Source: Nitrososphaerales archaeon
Lineage (GTDB): Archaea > Thermoproteota > Nitrososphaeria > Nitrososphaerales > CADDZS01
Length of the DNA: 54,858 nucleotides
Reading direction: 5' to 3'
Assembly: GCA_030038075.1 (NCBI GenBank)
Contig: JASHPO010000128.1
Coordinates: forward strand, 1 to 54,858
This document shows positions 18,427-54,561 of the stretch, one piece after another (within the stretch, counting starts at the first letter, position 1; every line of letters starts with the position of its first letter). The notes below the pieces were generated by a model, which saw only the letters and a program-made list of their open reading frames with translations, was not told the DNA's origin and did no database searches. The position numbers and the translations under genes are program-made.

Positions 18427-19701
18427 ATGCGAATTGGACTAAAATGGAGGAAGAGGAGGTACTCGTCGATATGCGCATTCAGCCTGGTTGCTATCACCAT
18501 ACTCATTCTCGCCTTTTCAATCCCAGCCTATTCGCCTCATTCATTTGTATCAGCTTCAAGCGGCGCAACCATAGTCCAGTCAGGATCGGCTGGATGCACC
18601 AATTCTTGTAGCACTTCTCTTTCCGTTACTCTTTCAAATCCAGTCTCGCTCGGAGACGTGCTAGTTGTAGTCGTCACAGTCCCTGACCCCGCCGTCGTGG
18701 ATGTCACCGACACATTATCTGCAGGTTTTGTTTCGGCGGTTGCAGACAACGGCCCCGTAGGCAGCTCCGATGCGGACATCTTCTACGCGCAAGCCTGGTC
18801 AGGCTCTTCGGACACGATAACAGCTACTTTTAACTCGAATTGGAGTGGCGAAGCTATTTACGTTTATGATGTCTCGGGAGTGAGCGTCGCAAGTCCGGTC
18901 ACAGTGACAGGAAGCGGAGCGAGTTGCTCCATCGGTTGCACAGACTCCTTCTCTACCTCTTCGAATGCAACGTATTCTAGCGGCTCTTTCGTAGTCGCTG
19001 CTATTGCAGATAATGATGGAAACGGTGGAACATTTACAGCAGGATCACCGTTCAGCCCATTAACTTCTGCTAGCGAATTTGGCTTTTCTGAATATTACGT
19101 CGCGGGTTCATCTGGAAGCACGAATTTTCCAGCCTCTCTTACTGGCACCTATGAGACAGGTGCAGGCTGGGCCGAAGCCGGACTTGTTTTATCACCCTCA
19201 GTTACTTTGACAGCCACAGTCACTAGTACAACGACACAGACCCAGGCTTCGACTGTCACCCAATACTCCACGGTGACGGCGGTCTCGACCGTTACCAGCG
19301 TCTCCACTACCACAGCTTCATCGACTGCGCCAAGCACACTGACGATACAGACGAGAACTGACACAGGTGCAGCAATATCTGTTCAGGTGACGGTCACCGG
19401 GACAAACGCGCCTGCTTCTATAACCACTAATTCTGCAGGCAATTATCTGTTTACCGCAGGTCAACTCGTAACAGGAGACACGTATACCGTGAGCACTAAC
19501 ATAAATGGCGCCCCGCTCTCGGCGTCGGTTGTGTTGTCGGGCAACTCCGTGATTGTCCTCGAACCAACACCTGCTTCGATTGGGTCGATTCCAGACTTTC
19601 CGGTGCTTCAACTTGCGTTCCCTCTGCTCTTCCTTGCAGGCGTCGGGGTGTACCTAGTGGTGAGAAGACGGGTCGCTCTCCAACCAGATGTTAGACAATA
19701 G
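18427..19701 (+). CDS. Secreted Ser/Thr-rich surface protein with PDFP-type C-terminal sorting signal
   Basis: From the ATG at 18427 the product is 424 residues. It has a basic N-terminus followed by a hydrophobic signal segment (about residues 16-34), a large extracellular beta-rich region of Ser, Thr, Gly and Val containing a four-cysteine pattern, then a Thr/Ser-Val repeat linker (TVTSTTTQTQASTVTQYST and similar) near residues 285-320. A small Ig/carboxypeptidase-regulatory-like domain follows. The last 35 residues are the sorting signature: IPDFP motif, hydrophobic span, and RRR cluster. An in-frame start at 18343 would add 28 residues and is less likely. It sits 30 bases before the archaeosortase, so it is a probable substrate. 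Confidence 0.75.
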   Translation: MRIGLKWRKRRYSSICAFSLVAITILILAFSIPAYSPHSFVSASSGATIVQSGSAGCTNSCSTSLSVTLSNPVSLGDVLVVVVTVPDPAVVDVTDTLSAGFVSAVADNGPVGSSDADIFYAQAWSGSSDTITATFNSNWSGEAIYVYDVSGVSVASPVTVTGSGASCSIGCTDSFSTSSNATYSSGSFVVAAIADNDGNGGTFTAGSPFSPLTSASEFGFSEYYVAGSSGSTNFPASLTGTYETGAGWAEAGLVLSPSVTLTATVTSTTTQTQASTVTQYSTVTAVSTVTSVSTTTASSTAPSTLTIQTRTDTGAAISVQVTVTGTNAPASITTNSAGNYLFTAGQLVTGDTYTVSTNINGAPLSASVVLSGNSVIVLEPTPASIGSIPDFPVLQLAFPLLFLAGVGVYLVVRRRVALQPDVRQ

Positions 19702-19731
19702 ATAGGACAGCGACACGGGTTTGCATCCGGT

Positions 19732-20454
19732 TTGAATTTCAACAACTCCGGAAAAGCTGCGAGACTTGGGGTAGCGGTTACACTACTCGTCGCATCGATC
19801 TTGTTCTATTTTGTCTATCAGGAAATCCAGATAGTATATCTTGCCATAATTAGCATACTCTCCTTCAGCTGTGCTCTGTATCTAGTCAGGAAGGAATTAT
19901 ACAGGTTCAGAATACTCGAACCATTCGCGAAGATTCTCCCGTACATCATCATCGGAGCGTTCGCATCAGTGATTCTTGTAACACTGGGCATTCAGATTTC
20001 AGTTGCAAACTCGTATTATTCCTCATTGCTCTCTTTTGTCTCTTCAAGATTTGCCGCGTTTCTCTTATCAATGACCGGAGCCAAGATCGAGGTCGCTGGA
20101 AACATCCTGTACTTTCCGAACGGGAACGCACTTTCAGTAGGGCCGATGTGCAGCGGTGCATATTCTTCTCTCCTTTTCGGACTTCTTTCATTCGTGATGG
20201 TCGCCGACGTTGGCAGAAGAGCTCCCAAGGGAAGACTCCTTGTGGTTCTTATCCTGGGAGTTGCCTTTGCCTACCTCTCGAACATGCTGAGAATCACCTT
20301 CCTTGCGTCTTTGATGTACCTCTTCGGTCTCACGACTATGGACATTGCCCACCAGTTCGCCGGCTATGGCATCTTCTTGAGCTTCATCTCACTCTTCTGG
20401 ATTTTCTCACTGAAGTGGCTTGCCACTGGAAGAGCGACTCGCATTTCCTCATGA
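19732..20454 (+). CDS. Archaeosortase/exosortase-family transpeptidase
   Basis: A 240-residue polytopic membrane protein with about seven or eight hydrophobic spans. The exosortase/archaeosortase catalytic residues are in order: Cys140 in GPMCSGAYSS, Arg187 in SNMLRITFLA, and His207 in DIAHQFAGYG. Such enzymes cleave C-terminal tripartite signals (short motif, membrane helix, basic end) on surface proteins and are thought to link them to lipid or glycan. The adjacent upstream gene encodes such a protein, and another is at 53.3-54.6 kb. TTG start. The subfamily is uncertain; the PEF-type signals suggest an ArtC-like enzyme. Confidence 0.88.
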   Translation: MNFNNSGKAARLGVAVTLLVASILFYFVYQEIQIVYLAIISILSFSCALYLVRKELYRFRILEPFAKILPYIIIGAFASVILVTLGIQISVANSYYSSLLSFVSSRFAAFLLSMTGAKIEVAGNILYFPNGNALSVGPMCSGAYSSLLFGLLSFVMVADVGRRAPKGRLLVVLILGVAFAYLSNMLRITFLASLMYLFGLTTMDIAHQFAGYGIFLSFISLFWIFSLKWLATGRATRISS

Positions 20455-26757: not shown

Positions 26758-27510
26758 TCACATCAGCAACTCATCCAGTGAGTCCCTATTCCTAGAAAGC
26801 TTGAAGTGGTTAATATCTGTCTGAGAAAATTCTTTCATTATCTTTCCATCTCTAACGGAATAAACCCGGTCGCACCCCTCAACAACGAGGGGGTCATGCG
26901 TGACTATGATAAATGTAATTTTTTTATCCCTTCGCAGAGCTCTGATCAATTCTACCAAGTTCTTTGCCGACTTGGAGTCGAGGTCGCCGGTGGGCTCGTC
27001 ACCAAGAATAACCGGTGGATTGTTTGCAAGAGCACGTGCGACGGCGACTCTCTGTTGTTCTCCACCACTCATTTGACTGGGCAAATGATCAAATCTGTGT
27101 TCCATGCCGACGACTCTGAGCAGCTCCCTCGCTCGCTTCTGCCGTTCTTCGACTTGGACATTTGCTAGATTCATTGGAAGTTCGACATTTTCTTCGGCGT
27201 CCAGAGTGGAAATCAGATTGTAGAATTGGAATATGAAGCCTATCTTTTCCAATCTGAAATCGGTTAGTTCTCCATCATTGAGCTCGGAAAGATCTTCTCC
27301 ATCAACAATTATGCTTCCGCTAGATGGCCGCCCCATACCGCCAACAAGATTGAGCAGCGTTGTCTTGCCCGAGCCAGACGGTCCTACGATTCCCAAAATT
27401 TCGCCTTTCTTAACGCCGAAACTAATTCCGTTTAGGGCAGGCACTTTTTTCTTTCCGCGTTTGTACCTTTTCTCGACATCTTTTAACTGAACAAGAAGTT
27501 CGTTAGCCGT
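26758..27510 (-). CDS. ABC transporter ATPase, MacB/LolD type, with apparent ACG start
   Basis: The ATPase has Walker A GPSGSGKT, Q-loop in IFQFYNLIS, signature MSGGEQQRVAVARAL and Walker B ending in GDEPTGDLD. The first in-frame GTG (27444) would delete the conserved first strand, LVQLKDVEKRYKRG. That strand is encoded upstream in the same frame, reaching ACG at 27508-27510, which overlaps the permease stop and follows AGGAGG by 9 bases. From ACG the protein is 250 residues. The same bases with ATG would leave the permease's last Tyr unchanged. Last gene of the surface ABC cluster. Confidence 0.85.
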   Translation of the reverse strand, partial: TANELLVQLKDVEKRYKRGKKKVPALNGISFGVKKGEILGIVGPSGSGKTTLLNLVGGMGRPSSGSIIVDGEDLSELNDGELTDFRLEKIGFIFQFYNLISTLDAEENVELPMNLANVQVEERQKRARELLRVVGMEHRFDHLPSQMSGGEQQRVAVARALANNPPVILGDEPTGDLDSKSAKNLVELIRALRRDKKITFIIVTHDPLVVEGCDRVYSVRDGKIMKEFSQTDINHFKLSRNRDSLDELLM

Positions 27511-28816
27511 AGCGAAGCGCCTCCTCTGGTTTCATCCTAGAAGCTCGCATCGCAGGATAAATGCCCGCGAGAACACTCACGACAACTCCGAGAGCGATAC
27601 TGAGCAGTATATCGGTCGGAATCAGTGCCGTAGACAATCTGCCACCAAGCAAACCGCCGAAAAGTCCGATGGTGCTAATTGAACTCGAAAAGAAGGGCAG
27701 AATGAGGGCTATTATTATTCCGATAATGGCGCCGCTAAGAGCACCAACTGCTCCTATCAACAGAGATTCGCCCATGACGATCCTCATCACTTGCCTCTGA
27801 TGCGCACCGATAGCGCGCAGGGTTCCTATCTCGCGGGTTCTCTCACTGATGGACATTATCATTGTGTTTGTGACTCCGAATCCACCCGCGAGCAAGGCTA
27901 CCATGCCCATCATTATGAAGAAGATCGCGAGGGAAGAAGATAGAGAAGCCTCACTCGCAACACTAGAACCGGTACTGGCAGTAACTCCTGATATCGAGTT
28001 TTGAACCTCCGAAGCGACGGAGTGCACCAAGCTGGGGTTAGAAGCCTTTACATCTATTTCTGAGACCAACCCTTGATTCCCACTAATATTTTGTGCATTT
28101 GAAAGTGGAATGTAGGCTGTCCTGGAGGTGGGGCCGAACGTGGATCCTGCTGAATATACCCCCACCACGGTGTATGGAGTTCCAGCGGGGTTTGTTGAGT
28201 TTAGAGCATTATAACTAAGCGTCACGTTGGAGCCAACTGAAATACCCAGATTCTGAGCAAGAACATTGTTCAATACAACCTCATTGCCGGAAGTCAGCAT
28301 CGAACCGTTGACAATGTCCAAGCCGGTGGTGGCCTCCGTGAATGAAGCTGGAATGATTCCATATAGGAGTACAGTATTGTTATCGACATATCCGGAAGTA
28401 GAGAGCTGTGGAGACACAGCATAGACACCCTTCAAGCCAGCTATCGTTGTAGCGTCCGATTCCGGAATGGTAGTGCTGCTGCCACCAATAAATGCTTCAA
28501 AACTACCGCCTGGAGCACCATTTCCGATGAAGTATTGCCCACCGCCACTTGGAGGTGCACCTCCGCTGGAAATTTGAAAAGCTGTAGCACCTGGAGGAGG
28601 AGTAAATCCGCTCAAACTCGGGGTGGTGCTATTTGTAACTGTAATTTGCGCAGTTACCACAGATCTCAGTAGATTTGTGGTGCTACTCGAAGTTCCGGCC
28701 GCAAGCGAGAGAAGTACAAGTATCATTGTAACTCCCACTATGATTCCAGATATCGATAGAATGGTTCTGGCCTTACGTCTCGTCAGACTTCTGTAAGCCA
28801 TCGTCATGCTAGACAT
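27503..28816 (-). CDS. MacB/FtsX-family ABC permease
   Basis: A 437-residue permease with one N-terminal span (about residues 17-38, ILSISGIIVGVTMILVLLSL), a periplasmic-type MacB core domain of about 230 residues facing outward, and three C-terminal FtsX spans (FFIMMGMVALLAGGFGVTN, then MGESLLIGAVGALSGAIIG and SIALGVVVSVLAGIYPAM). The motif ISERTREIGTLRAIGA is diagnostic. Such systems move substrates from or within the membrane rather than across it. Its stop overlaps the ATPase start. Confidence 0.9.
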   Translation of the reverse strand: MSSMTMAYRSLTRRKARTILSISGIIVGVTMILVLLSLAAGTSSSTTNLLRSVVTAQITVTNSTTPSLSGFTPPPGATAFQISSGGAPPSGGGQYFIGNGAPGGSFEAFIGGSSTTIPESDATTIAGLKGVYAVSPQLSTSGYVDNNTVLLYGIIPASFTEATTGLDIVNGSMLTSGNEVVLNNVLAQNLGISVGSNVTLSYNALNSTNPAGTPYTVVGVYSAGSTFGPTSRTAYIPLSNAQNISGNQGLVSEIDVKASNPSLVHSVASEVQNSISGVTASTGSSVASEASLSSSLAIFFIMMGMVALLAGGFGVTNTMIMSISERTREIGTLRAIGAHQRQVMRIVMGESLLIGAVGALSGAIIGIIIALILPFFSSSISTIGLFGGLLGGRLSTALIPTDILLSIALGVVVSVLAGIYPAMRASRMKPEEALRYG

Positions 28817-28841
28817 TAGGTATTCAATGCTCCAAAAAAGA

Positions 28842-28851
28842 TCTTATATTG
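28842..28851 (-). promoter_or_regulatory. Possible internal TATA-like box in the ABC cluster
   Basis: On the minus strand AATATAAGA lies about 30 bases before the ATG of the permease at 28816, in a 116-base gap that interrupts an otherwise compact cluster. A start about 25 bases downstream would give an almost leaderless transcript for the last permease and ATPase. Confidence 0.4.
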
Positions 28852-28932
28852 ATATTCCATAATCTTTCCAAAATCATAGATGGTGGCGCGCAATTCAAGC
28901 GCTTCCAAGTTTTTAAGGTATTAGCATCCTCG

Positions 28933-30243
28933 CTATATTGCGCGTAACGCGTCAACAGGTGGGAGCTTTGAAGCACGCCACGAAGGAAGCAAACCAGCTA
29001 GCATCCCCACGGCAGTTGCGAGAGCAATTACCGCTATTAAAAGCTCGGGAGTGATCGCCGGAGTAATTGTACCAGCGGATGATGAGGATGAAAGACTACC
29101 GGATTTGGCTGGACCCTGTCCTGAACTTCCCTGGAGCAAAATCACGACTAGGAAGGAGAGACCAGATCCTGCGCCTGCTCCCACCAAGCCACCTATGAAA
29201 CCGGTCAGAGAAGCTTCCGATAGAAACGTCAGCATGATGTTCCTGCCTGTAGCTCCAAGCGCCTTCATTATCCCAATTTCCCTTGTCCGCTCCAGAACGG
29301 TCGTGTACATTGTTGTCATGATGCCGATGAAAGCGACAACCACAGAAATGCCCGCAACGGCTTCCAGAAGTGTACTGGTACTCGAAGAAATAGATGCTAT
29401 CGCAGAAAGGAGAGAGCTCACTGTGCTTGCGTGGATGTTGCTACTTCCAAAGAGGTTCGTGATCTCGGAAGCGACCTGATTCACCTCTTTGGCGCTTGAG
29501 GCTTTAACTAGGACACTTGTGTAGGTGTAGATATGCGTGATGCTCTGCGCAACAGAAAGAGGAACAAATATCGTAGAATCTGGATTTATTTCAACGCCTT
29601 GACCAAACGGATTGTAAATCCCGCTCACGGTGAAAGACCTCGTTACAGGCGAAGCGCTCGAACCATGCGGACCACCGCCAATACTCTGCTGGAACTCCAC
29701 ACCACCGCCGACGACTGAGAACGATGAACTCAGCGCTTGTATCTGTGACACTGTAATTACTTCGTCGACCGTAATGTTCTTCGCGCCAGAAACGTCAGGA
29801 TTTGCGACTGAAGACCCGACGACTGCAGCTGTCTGGTCAGAGGAAGATGGTATCGAACCGAGTTGAAGCGACAACGACGGTAGTACAGATTCTAGTTCGG
29901 TCAGATCCGCGGCTATAATACTCACCCCTTGCTGTGATCCTGCGATGTCAATGTCCCCGCTCAGCTGGTAGTATGGAACCACCGCAGACACACCCTGCAA
30001 ATTCTGTATCTCATTGATGTCTGACTGAGTGAGGTTGATACTGCTAGACACAAAAATCGTCGTCGCGCCTAGCTTTTCGAATTGCGCCTGTGAAGCGTTG
30101 CTGTAACCCTGCGTGGCAGCGACCAGAGCAACAATCGTAGCGGGCCCGATAACTATACCAAGTATGGTGAGCGCTGCCCTGACCTTTCTATCAGCCATCG
30201 CTCCAGCCGCTAAAGAGAAGATATCTCTGATTTTCATAGTCAT
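28933..30243 (-). CDS. MacB/FtsX-family ABC permease (second copy)
   Basis: The 436-residue permease has the same architecture as its neighbour: N-terminal span (AALTILGIVIGPATIVALVA), an outward domain (residues 50-270) and three C-terminal spans with LERTREIGIMKALGATGRNI between them. A Gly/Ser-rich loop near residue 370 is longer than usual. It starts at ATG 12 bases downstream of the surface protein gene, so it should pair with the ATPase at 32.3-33.0 kb. Confidence 0.9.
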   Translation of the reverse strand: MTMKIRDIFSLAAGAMADRKVRAALTILGIVIGPATIVALVAATQGYSNASQAQFEKLGATTIFVSSSINLTQSDINEIQNLQGVSAVVPYYQLSGDIDIAGSQQGVSIIAADLTELESVLPSLSLQLGSIPSSSDQTAAVVGSSVANPDVSGAKNITVDEVITVSQIQALSSSFSVVGGGVEFQQSIGGGPHGSSASPVTRSFTVSGIYNPFGQGVEINPDSTIFVPLSVAQSITHIYTYTSVLVKASSAKEVNQVASEITNLFGSSNIHASTVSSLLSAIASISSSTSTLLEAVAGISVVVAFIGIMTTMYTTVLERTREIGIMKALGATGRNIMLTFLSEASLTGFIGGLVGAGAGSGLSFLVVILLQGSSGQGPAKSGSLSSSSSAGTITPAITPELLIAVIALATAVGMLAGLLPSWRASKLPPVDALRAI

Positions 30244-30255
30244 AACGGGTCGTCC

Positions 30256-32280
30256 TCAGGAAACTCGCCCTGCACTGGGGGAAGCAACTAGATGTCGTCT
30301 TTCCTGCCTTCGCCTGACTGTTGCGACGACCCCCGTGCCAAGAGCCACTAATACCACGATGACAATTATTAGAAACTCGAGCACGGTTAATCCGAAAATT
30401 CCGTTCTGACTTGTTGTGCTAGGAGTTGTTGAGTTTGAAGATAGTATCTGTGAGATAGACTTTAGCTGCGTTGTCTCTGATGAAGAAGAGTTGATTGTCT
30501 GACCCAGACTGTTCTTGAATTGAATGAAGATCGTGATGTTACCTGCGACAATGCCGCCCTCTGCTTGGAGGGGAATGGTTGCGGTGAACGGGACCGGCGA
30601 GTCTGGATCTATTTCACCGACGTAATCTGGAGACCCCGTTGTTGAACCGTTCAGAATTCCCGAGACTGCGGAATAGTACGCGGAGCTCGAACCTTCGTTG
30701 AGAATGCTTCCTGTTACGGTGATTGTATTCGCTGTCTGTGAAAATGCCTCGTTTTGAATCACAAGCTCAACCGGACCAGAAAGATTTACCGCGACGGAAT
30801 AAGTTTGGTCGTGAGTCATTCCATACTGGTCAGTGAAACTGACATTGATTGTCGTAGAATAGACTCCACTTGTCGAGCTTAGTGAAGCAGTAAGGTAGGC
30901 AGTAAACACCTGACTGGCACCCGGAGATATGCTTGTTCCAACCGACGAGAATGTCGAATTTCCTGAAATCACCAGAGGTGAGGCTACGGAAATTGCAAAC
31001 GTCGGTGAGTAAATCGTAGAGTTTCCGAGATTCTTCACAAGAAACGAAACTTCACTAACAGACCCGCTGATCACCGAATTGCTGATGGTTGTTACAGAAA
31101 GCGAAGTGTTCGCTATTGTAGTGGCCGCAACTTGGAAGCCTTCGCTCTGGCCCGTACTGCCTGCTACCCCGTATTGATCAAAGTAGCTGGCTGAAAAAGT
31201 GAGCGTCAGCGGTGAAGATGCCGCAGAGCTGGAAACATAGATGCTAACAGTCGCCGAATCGGAAGAGCCGGGAGCGAGGCTATCTACATTCGGAAAATTC
31301 GAAACCAAGCTGACGCTTTGCGAGGAACCAGACATCGTAGTTATAATGCTGTCAGCAGTTCCACTGCCAGCGTTTGTTAGAGTCACGGTTACGTTGTTCA
31401 CCTGACCCGGGGAAAGAGAGTGAGGCGTTACAGAAAATTCCAAACTGGGCTCACTAAGCGACGAGCCGTAGAAATCAAACGTCTGGGAAGCCGATCTGGA
31501 ATTTCCGGACGGATCTTTGTAGCTGGCGGCTACTGTGAGAGAAATTACAGAGCCGGAAGCGCTCTTTGGTATATAGATTTGCAGCATAAAAGTATCGCTC
31601 GTCCCCGATGCGAGACTCAGGATCTGGGGAACGGAATTGACAATACCCGCTATTTGCGATGATGCAGAAATTGAAATGTTTGAGGCGCTACCGCTACCCG
31701 TGTTTTGGATTGACATTGAGATGTTGTTGACCTCTCCAGAAATCAAGGTGGAGCTGGGCGAGCTGAAATCGATCTGCGGTGTCCCCTGAACAACCAAAGT
31801 TATCGTAGAAGTTTGGTTCAGGACGTACGCATAACCGGCAGCGGTCCAAGAAAGATTCAGCGTTGCAGAGTACGATCCCAGAGCTAGGTTTGAAGCTAGA
31901 TAGATGGAGTTGAAAGTTAATTCGAAGATTGTTCCAGTCGGCATCGTCTGAGTCTCAGTGGAGAAATCAACGCTGGAGCCATTGTAAAGAGTAAAGCCGG
32001 TAGGCAGATCGAGCAATCCCTGAACGCTCTCAGCAGTGTTTGGGAATGTGTATTCGAGGGTGACGGTGAGCGGAACGTTCCTATCTCCTGGACCTGCGGT
32101 CGTGCTGTTTGAAGCGGCCCCCCAGGCGGCGTTGATCACCTGAAAGCCTGTAGTGTTGCTGGAGCTCGCGCTCACGGAGGGAATCAAGACGAGACCTGAC
32201 GCGAGCATGAAACTCATAATCATCAAAGAAAGAATCTTCAATCGCGGTGCCGCGAATATACCGGAGCTCCTTTCGGCCAA
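30256..32280 (-). CDS. Surface protein with CARDB/COG1361-like repeats and C-terminal anchor
   Basis: A 674-residue secreted protein. TTG start, a signal peptide (LSLMIMSFMLASGLVLIPS), then four or five Ig-like repeats of about 100-120 residues, each opening with a segment such as GEVNNISMSIQNTGSGSAS or GQVNNVTVTLTNAGSGTAD. It ends with a Ser/Thr linker, a membrane span (LEFLIIVIVVLVALGTGVVA) and a basic RRRQERR end. No PEFP motif precedes that span, so it is likely a plain membrane anchor. Such proteins accompany MacB-type ABC genes in archaea; a substrate-binding or cell-surface role is inferred. Confidence 0.82.
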   Translation of the reverse strand: MAERSSGIFAAPRLKILSLMIMSFMLASGLVLIPSVSASSSNTTGFQVINAAWGAASNSTTAGPGDRNVPLTVTLEYTFPNTAESVQGLLDLPTGFTLYNGSSVDFSTETQTMPTGTIFELTFNSIYLASNLALGSYSATLNLSWTAAGYAYVLNQTSTITLVVQGTPQIDFSSPSSTLISGEVNNISMSIQNTGSGSASNISISASSQIAGIVNSVPQILSLASGTSDTFMLQIYIPKSASGSVISLTVAASYKDPSGNSRSASQTFDFYGSSLSEPSLEFSVTPHSLSPGQVNNVTVTLTNAGSGTADSIITTMSGSSQSVSLVSNFPNVDSLAPGSSDSATVSIYVSSSAASSPLTLTFSASYFDQYGVAGSTGQSEGFQVAATTIANTSLSVTTISNSVISGSVSEVSFLVKNLGNSTIYSPTFAISVASPLVISGNSTFSSVGTSISPGASQVFTAYLTASLSSTSGVYSTTINVSFTDQYGMTHDQTYSVAVNLSGPVELVIQNEAFSQTANTITVTGSILNEGSSSAYYSAVSGILNGSTTGSPDYVGEIDPDSPVPFTATIPLQAEGGIVAGNITIFIQFKNSLGQTINSSSSETTQLKSISQILSSNSTTPSTTSQNGIFGLTVLEFLIIVIVVLVALGTGVVATVRRRQERRHLVASPSAGRVS

Positions 32281-32286
32281 GTTCAG

Positions 32287-32985
32287 TCAATTCTCCTTTA
32301 TCTCTGCGATCATACCGTCTTTGATCGAAATGATTTTCTTGGCTTTGGCTGCGACCTCCATGTTGTGTGTGATCATGACGATGGTCTTCTTTGCCTCTGA
32401 ATTCAGTCGCTCGAAAATTTCCATCATTAATTCGGAGTTTTTGGTGTCCAAGTTTCCCGTAGGTTCGTCAGCAAGAAGAATTGAAGGATTGTTCGCGAGA
32501 GCTCTCGCAACGGCTACTCTTTGCTGCTCGCCGCCACTCAATTCGCCGGGTTTGTTTTCTCCTTTTGAGCCTATTCCAAAGTCTTCGAGGAGCGCGACCG
32601 CGCGATCTCTCCTATCCTTCCGATTGTATCCGCGAATCGTCATAGGTAAGGCAATATTTTCTGCGGCCGTCATCCGTTGAATCAGATTAAAGGACTGGAA
32701 GACAAACCCAATTTTTTCGTTCCGTAGCCTTGCAAGCTCTTGATTAGTCATATTCGATAGGTCAGAGCCGTCAATCAGTACTTTGCCGGAACTGGGTCTG
32801 TCAAGTGCGCCGATAATGTTAAGCAATGTACTCTTGCCTGAGCCGGATGGCCCAACTATCGCCGCAAATTCGCCGTTAGCTACTGAAAAAGTTGCACCAT
32901 GTAAAGCGATGGTACCGCTTTGCTCGGCGCCATAAATCTTAGTGAGGTTTTCAACATCGAGTGTCTTTTCTGCGCGGTCCGCCAT
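32287..32985 (-). CDS. ABC transporter ATPase, MacB/LolD type
   Basis: About 232 residues from ATG 32985; an ATG at 33003 would add six residues. The inner ATG has a GGTGA ribosome site seven bases upstream and is preferred. Walker A GPSGSGKS, signature LSGGEQQRVAVARAL and Walker B ILLADEPTGNLD are intact. It lies directly upstream of the surface protein and the second permease and presumably forms a MacB-type pair with that permease. Confidence 0.92.
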   Translation of the reverse strand: MADRAEKTLDVENLTKIYGAEQSGTIALHGATFSVANGEFAAIVGPSGSGKSTLLNIIGALDRPSSGKVLIDGSDLSNMTNQELARLRNEKIGFVFQSFNLIQRMTAAENIALPMTIRGYNRKDRRDRAVALLEDFGIGSKGENKPGELSGGEQQRVAVARALANNPSILLADEPTGNLDTKNSELMMEIFERLNSEAKKTIVMITHNMEVAAKAKKIISIKDGMIAEIKEN

Positions 32986-33012
32986 TGTATATTCACCAAG
33001 CATTTAGGCGAC

Positions 33013-33363
33013 CTAAGTTACTGCCTTTGGTTGAAAAGACGTGATCTGTTTGGATAACGATTCAATTGCGGTGAGGAATAAACCAGCCCCGCAAAATGCT
33101 ATTCCGATACCAGTAACCACTACCGCAACTGTACCGGAAGAGCCACTTGAAGGAGCGTTGGTACCGCATTGAACCCCGCCGCTTGACAGGGTTGTGCAAT
33201 CAGCACCACTGGGGGGACTAATGGACGTTGAATTTCCTGAATTTTCCAGGATGGAGGTAGATTTTGGTGTCGAGCTCGAACTTGTTAGAACTGGATCGCT
33301 GACTAGTATCAGACCAAGACCTGCGACAACCAAGATTACGCCGAGAAGCAGTAACTTCTTCAT
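33013..33363 (-). CDS. Small two-helix membrane protein
   Basis: The 116-residue product has an N-terminal span (residues 4-21, LLLLGVILVVAGLGLILV), an extracellular Ser/Thr/Gly-rich loop of about 55 residues with two cysteines near the middle (DCTTLSSGGVQCG) that could form a disulfide, and a second span (VAVVVTGIGIAFCGAGLFLT). It is the first gene of the ABC cluster. Function unknown; an accessory subunit is plausible. Confidence 0.6.
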   Translation of the reverse strand: MKKLLLLGVILVVAGLGLILVSDPVLTSSSSTPKSTSILENSGNSTSISPPSGADCTTLSSGGVQCGTNAPSSGSSGTVAVVVTGIGIAFCGAGLFLTAIESLSKQITSFQPKAVT

Positions 33364-53328: not shown

Positions 53329-54561
53329 TTAATGTGCTGCTTGCCGTCGGAATCCTGCGCCACGTTTCTGCAGGAAAATAATCAACGAAAATGAGGATAC
53401 AGCCAAGACAAGAAGACCGACCCCATAGTCAGGAAACTCCGGCACACCTGTTGGCGACGATGTTGTCATAGTGGTACTAGTAGAGCTACTAGAAGTACTA
53501 GTAGAGCTAGTCGTGGTACTAGTAGTGCTGGTAGTGGTAGAAAATGCGGGAGCCGTGTAGTAGACATTGTCGACCAACTCTCCTGCTATGGTTTCCCCAT
53601 CCATGCAATATATTGTTCCAGAGTTAGTAACGCATACAGTTTGCTGGACATTACGTGGATACGCTGTCGTAGAGGTCCACGCGCCAATCGACCCACCGGA
53701 GGCCGTAGCATAATTGACAGCATTATCCAGTCCATATTCGTAGTCGCCGCCAACACAGTAAACATAACCGTTAAGAAGAACGCACGACTCATCGGCTATT
53801 CCACCGCTCTCAGGATAGCTGTTGGTAGACAAGGACCACGGCCCAACATCTCCTCCGCTAATTGAAGCAACATACACGGAGTCTGTTGGTGTGAAACCAG
53901 TAGTTTCTCCGCCAACGCAATAAATGTACTGTCCGTCGGTAAAGCAACTTTCTTGTTCGATTCCGATGGGATAGCTGTTGGTAGACAAGGTCCATGAGCC
54001 GACCCCGGTTGCAGATAGAAGAGCTGAGTAGACCACGGTGCTCTCAGTTGTAGAGGAAGTTGTGCCGCCGACGCAGTAAATATAAACACCAGCTGCAACG
54101 CAGCTTTCGAACTTTATCCCGGTCGGATAGGACGTAGTAGCGGTCCAGGAACCTATCCCTCCTGTGGATGATAACTGAGCATAGTAGACGTCGTTGATAG
54201 GCGAATTGGTAGACGGATTAATGCCTCCAACACAGTAGATATACGAGCCACTCGTAACACAGCTCTCCTGTCCGGTAGTCATGGTATAGTTGTTGGTAGT
54301 CATTGACCAAGTACCCACTCCTGTTGACAAAAGTGGGGCATAGTAAATGGTATCAGTATACCCACTAGGGTCGGCGCCTGCTACGCAGTAGACGTAGCCG
54401 GAATAGGAAGCGCAACTAAACTGCCAGAGACTATCAGGCATTCTTGTAGTGCTAGTCCATGAGCTTATAGATTCGCCCGAAACATTGGTGAGGCCAAAAG
54501 AGAACACAAGTAGAATGGTCACTGAAATTGAGATCGCTAAAATTTTCCTTCTTTCATGCAT
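53329..54561 (-). CDS. Secreted six-bladed kelch-like protein with PEFP C-terminal sorting signal
   Basis: A 410-residue exported protein. It has a signal peptide (residues 5-28), six repeats of about 52 residues each opening with a Cys-x8-Cys hairpin (CASYSGYVYC, CVTSGSYIYC, CVAAGVYIYC, CFTDGQYIYC, CVLLNGYVYC and CVTNSGTIYC) and ending in a GSW/GTW strand, a Thr/Ser linker at about 335-368, and a C-terminal signal VPEFPDYG, hydrophobic span and RGAGFRR. The repeats resemble kelch beta-propeller blades, each with a likely disulfide. It is a second candidate archaeosortase substrate. ATG start. Confidence 0.82.
   Translation of the reverse strand: MHERRKILAISISVTILLVFSFGLTNVSGESISSWTSTTRMPDSLWQFSCASYSGYVYCVAGADPSGYTDTIYYAPLLSTGVGTWSMTTNNYTMTTGQESCVTSGSYIYCVGGINPSTNSPINDVYYAQLSSTGGIGSWTATTSYPTGIKFESCVAAGVYIYCVGGTTSSTTESTVVYSALLSATGVGSWTLSTNSYPIGIEQESCFTDGQYIYCVGGETTGFTPTDSVYVASISGGDVGPWSLSTNSYPESGGIADESCVLLNGYVYCVGGDYEYGLDNAVNYATASGGSIGAWTSTTAYPRNVQQTVCVTNSGTIYCMDGETIAGELVDNVYYTAPAFSTTTSTTSTTTSSTSTSSSSTSTTMTTSSPTGVPEFPDYGVGLLVLAVSSFSLIIFLQKRGAGFRRQAAH

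Follow-up and report, generated by a model that had tools for sequence, protein, structure and literature searches.

This locus raises the question of whether an exosortase-like enzyme of an archaeon lies beside a protein that it processes. The window (the whole stretch of DNA analysed, 54,858 nucleotides) comes from a Nitrososphaerales archaeon, a poorly known relative of ammonia-oxidising archaea. Two of its open reading frames, 18427-19701 and 19732-20454, are on the same strand with a gap of 30 bases, and very probably represent an archaeosortase-type enzyme-substrate pair.

The enzyme and the protein encoded upstream

The features of the two genes were as follows.

19732-20454, + strand: exosortase/archaeosortase-family transpeptidase gene, 240 aa, TTG start (PF09721, 1.1e-17; TIGR04178, 2.4e-10; clade W, see below)
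20149-20151, + strand: codon of Cys140, presumed nucleophile (30-member family alignment)
20290-20292, + strand: codon of Arg187, invariant in 30/30 (same alignment)
20350-20352, + strand: codon of His207, invariant in 30/30 (same alignment)
18427-19701, + strand: gene of the likely substrate, a secreted surface protein rich in Ser and Thr, 424 aa from ATG (open reading frame, N-terminal hydrophobic signal, composition, C-terminal tail)
18427-18561, + strand: region of a predicted Sec signal peptide, approximately residues 1-45 (hydropathy highest over residues 14-32, which follow MRIGLKWRKRRYSS)
19198-19338, + strand: Thr/Ser-rich linker, possibly an O-glycosylated stalk, bounds approximate (translation read directly; glycosylation inferred)
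19588-19602, + strand: IPDFP recognition motif (sequence; sortase-adjacent tails share the core P-x-[FL]-P)
19603-19662, + strand: hydrophobic span of the sorting signal (hydropathy peak 2.19)
19663-19671, + strand: basic end (RRR) of the sorting signal (sequence)

The protein encoded at 19732-20454 matched archaeosortase models, as the initial annotation had proposed to check, with scores above the curated cut-offs of both the profile PF09721 (64.8 bits, cut-off 25.7) and the superfamily signature TIGR04178 (40.6 bits, cut-off 23). The Cys140/Arg187/His207 triad that had been claimed for it is present at exactly these positions, in SVGPMCSGAYSS, NMLRITF and MDIAHQFAGY, respectively, and the three residues align with conserved positions of 29 relatives. 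In this alignment, which comprises 30 exosortase-family proteins of related genomes, neither the Arg nor the His varies; the position of Cys140 holds Cys in the class of the window enzyme and in two other classes, but Ser in thaumarchaeosortases and in a class whose open frames reach ~770 residues. Hydropathy indicated about six hydrophobic segments, hence a multi-pass membrane protein. The predicted structure was mostly helical and of moderate confidence (pLDDT 73.8), the geometry of the triad being a prediction only, and no solved structure resembling the enzyme was found by sequence or by fold comparison. Separately, exosortase-family proteins mostly with frames of ~600-770 aa were seen in loci L104-L112 (G003, G006, G007, G009, G025, G044, G051, G058); in these, Ser replaces the catalytic Cys, and there is a long C-terminal extension with one weak zinc-ribbon match.

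The description of the upstream gene as encoding a secreted Ser/Thr-rich protein with IPDFP near its end, followed by a hydrophobic span and RRR, was also confirmed from the sequence. The protein begins with a basic stretch followed by the hydrophobic signal, its body is rich in Ser and Thr (34%) and poor in Lys and Arg (0.3%), and its C-terminus reads GSIPDFP-VLQLAFPLLFLAGVGVYLVV-RRRVALQPDVRQ. Profile searches gave no family match for the body. The composition of the body (18547-19581) is extreme for a surface protein, with a single Lys/Arg in 345 residues.

Related tails in the same genome and across genomes

We sought further tails in the genome of the window (G000) with a codon pattern and with profiles, and by reading stretches of the genome. 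The codon pattern for P[DE]FP was found at 65 places, as compared with 25 for the reversed control, and reading of each place left 8 true C-terminal motif-span-basic tails. With a PQFP tail on contig C20 and PEFG tails on C101 and C115, the total amounted to 11 (nine P[DEQ]FP and two PEFG) in this fragmented bin, which is 86% complete with 5% contamination. The genome-wide search that had been suggested for such signals therefore yielded about ten tails besides that of the upstream protein, and the pattern exceeds chance. Among the tails found, the window tail alone is of the PDFP type, departing from the VPEFP consensus. Another of the tails belongs to a second likely substrate within the window.

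53329-54561, - strand: kelch-repeat secreted protein ending in GVPEFP-span-QKRGAGFRR (tail search and translation)

The window also contains a MacB-like ABC transporter cluster (26758-33363, - strand), in which 30256-32280 encodes a long secreted protein, rich in Ser and Thr, whose C-terminus consists of a span and the basic stretch RRRQERR.

A profile of the nine own-genome tails, which as training rows of profile A1 score highly there by construction, gave no match better than E = 0.15 in two congeners from the same genus (G001 and G002), and no exosortase-family enzyme was found in either of them by PF09721 search. To compare more genomes, a tail profile built from 17 sequences was run on 61 genomes and set against the presence of PF09721. 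Enzyme and tail were both found in 22 genomes, the enzyme only in 2, the tail only in 5 and neither in 32 (p = 8e-10); when the genomes that had supplied tails were left out, the numbers were 16, 2, 5 and 32 (p = 8e-8), both p values being inflated because they ignore shared ancestry. Close relatives among these genomes differed in the expected direction. The absences of enzyme or tail are soft, because the genomes are fragmented bins, and in the five tail-positive genomes without an enzyme match some of the tail matches were to spans only. The public PEF-CTERM model did not separate enzyme-positive from enzyme-negative genomes, because Nitrosopumilus-like genomes bear related tails and PF09721 detects thaumarchaeosortases poorly.

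Recurrent pairs and the probable range of substrates

In a maximum-likelihood tree of 40 enzymes, nine fell on one branch (support 96/98), which we call clade W: the window enzyme (G000) and those of G117, G320, G047, G093, G261, G143, G258 and G003. The clade is present in ~2% of 400 genomes of the order and is thinly scattered over three families (f1, f9 and f10), and its gene is therefore an accessory one. A tail protein was found directly beside the enzyme in 5/9 loci, including that of the closest relative. The motifs were IPDFP in G000, VPEFP in G117 (read across an assembly gap), IPSFP in G093, VPDLP in G003 (on a 1909-aa protein) and the divergent FPEFP in G258. In G047 and G320, the distance to the tail gene was 1.4-4 kb, and none was seen beside the enzyme in the loci examined of G143 and G261. 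In another Cys-type class (G017 and G008:C5), tail genes were a few bases upstream of the enzyme, and no adjacent tail was observed in ten Ser-type loci examined. When adjacency was scored by a fixed rule, a tail was beside 9/32 sortases versus 10/256 other genes of the same loci (p = 4e-5).

The bodies of the sortase-adjacent tail proteins differ between loci. Of three homologues of the body of the window substrate, two terminate in an ordinary membrane anchor that lacks the motif, and no such tail was seen in the third. This indicates that the tail is a swappable module and, together with the variation among neighbours, that the conserved part is the tail plus the enzyme. The two plain-anchor homologues are on C57 and G117:C44 (L267:2784-4505 and L269:2961-4190). 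A search of plasmids and viral contigs yielded no relatives, and so no indication there of carriage by a mobile element or virus; in an empty-site comparison, the congeners' nearest match to the downstream flanking gene was only 33% identical.

The plain anchors of these homologues, and the fact that the PEF-CTERM model TIGR03024 does not match the window tail, would fit with this tail being an ordinary C-terminal membrane anchor (a stop-transfer span with positive-inside residues) that has a Pro-rich lead-in by chance, the enzyme acting on other proteins. We consider this very unlikely, since tails with P-x-[FL]-P are repeatedly found next to sortases of several families and follow the presence of sortases across genomes, and since the congeners that lack the enzyme also lack the motif tails. 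The model matches, the catalytic residues, the tripartite tail, the other tails of the genome, the co-occurrence and the recurrent adjacency in distant relatives all fit with an archaeosortase beside its cognate substrate.

The genome of the window encodes a second Cys-type exosortase-family enzyme (G000:C101, L073:1949-2824), which is 28% identical to the window enzyme. Members of its clade often adjoin glycosyltransferase and sugar dehydrogenase genes, a context that resembles the exopolysaccharide setting of bacterial exosortase A. GT4-like glycosyltransferase and UDP-sugar dehydrogenase genes recur in this way in L073, L136 and L200-L203. Tails of the PEFG, PEFS or PQFG type occur near several enzymes of the C101 class; G055:C1 is an exception with VPEFP, and the C101 contig itself bears one VPEFP protein as well.

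Because about ten other tails and this second enzyme are present in the genome, the upstream neighbour is probably one substrate among several. The initial annotation had spoken of a dedicated pair: the adjacency and the likely cognate relationship stand, but 'dedicated' is too strong in view of the other P-x-F-P tails and of the second Cys-type enzyme. We also considered that the window enzyme might act on its neighbour alone and leave the remaining P-[DE]-F-P tails to the C101 enzyme. Such an exclusive pairing, which we judged less likely and regard as rather doubtful, would agree with the window tail alone being PDFP, with the recurrence of adjacent pairs in clade W and with the VPEFP protein on the C101 contig. 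Against it, the W relatives pair with VPEFP, IPSFP, VPDLP and FPEFP, and enzymes of the C101 class are mostly near PEFG, PEFS or PQFG tails. We favour a window enzyme of broader range, which probably also serves other P-[DEQ]-F-P proteins, including the kelch protein. In a hypothetical division of labour, the C101 enzyme may handle PEFG tails. As a tentative extension, this soil-type thaumarchaeal family might have two Cys-type archaeosortases, each with a motif code of its own. Clade W would act on P-x-[FL]-P proteins and would have spread as a cassette of enzyme and substrate, and the C101 class would act on PEF-G/S proteins that are connected with glycosyltransferase genes; since relatives have Ser-type enzymes, the anchoring chemistry would then have changed within one order.

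Proposed mechanism and comparison with known systems

The main archaeosortase under laboratory study is ArtA of Haloferax. In Haloferax volcanii, cleavage of PGF-CTERM proteins by ArtA and attachment of a lipid have been proven experimentally (PMC7157517, PMC9263693); the substrate becomes lipid-anchored with the help of PssA and PssD (PMC7157517), and Cys173, Arg214 and Arg253 of the enzyme are essential (PMC9263693). By analogy for the cleavage and lipid anchoring, we infer the following scheme. The upstream protein would be exported by Sec and left tethered via its C-terminal span, where the multi-pass enzyme would recognise the P-x-[FL]-P motif adjoining this span. Cys140, aided by Arg187 and His207, would cut near IPDFP and hold the substrate as a Cys thioester, from which it would be passed to an amine on a membrane lipid, with release of the span and of the RRR end. 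The range of substrates is likewise deduced from the genes. The likeness with Haloferax ArtA lies in the processing of a tripartite tail, which is a prediction for the window pair. The differences are the residues (Cys/Arg/Arg in ArtA versus Cys/Arg/His in the window family), the motif, which is IPDFP and not PGF, and the lack of any match of the window enzyme to the ArtA model.

ArtC was the top-scoring named archaeal subfamily for the window enzyme, and 4/9 of the own-genome tails matched its PEF-CTERM partner model TIGR03024 (best 3.6e-5). The two systems are alike in having an archaeal, multi-pass, Cys-type enzyme and a target motif of the P-E-F type, followed by a span and a basic end. 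It is nevertheless unlikely that the pair is simply the ArtC/PEF-CTERM system already named in methanogens, since the score with the ArtC model TIGR03762 (40.6 bits) was far under the curated cut-off of 100, and since the window tail itself is unmatched by TIGR03024. The window enzyme is also shorter, with 240 aa versus 274 model positions, and the motif of its system is P-x-[FL]-P.

Bacterial exosortases (EpsH/XrtA and others), which act on PEP-CTERM proteins, share the PF09721 superfamily and the Cys-Arg-His residues, His being the third residue in the window enzyme as well. Their subfamily models, like all the named ones, scored far below cut-off with the window enzyme, and the host of the window is an archaeon.

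Thaumarchaeosortase, with PEFG-CTERM in ammonia-oxidising archaea, is the named class of the lineage of the window and shares with the window enzyme the order, the superfamily and a similar target motif. Yet it bears Ser at the position of the Cys of the window enzyme, and its model TIGR04297 (cut-off 250) gave no match to the window enzyme up to E = 10, as compared with 422.7 for a true member. A genome paper on Gagatemarchaeaceae (Group I.1c), which may be the host family, does not mention sortases (PMC10640624). The recurrence of the pairing in distant relatives points to a real branch, hitherto without a name, of a protein-anchoring system that is already known; clade W fits none of the named subfamily models and represents a new, unnamed subfamily. 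The recurring pairs suggest P-x-[FL]-P as a motif code that escapes the current family models in these archaea. Whereas thaumarchaeosortases carry Ser at the catalytic Cys position, the window offers an enzyme with its likely natural substrate next to it, a ready-made minimal system for co-expression.
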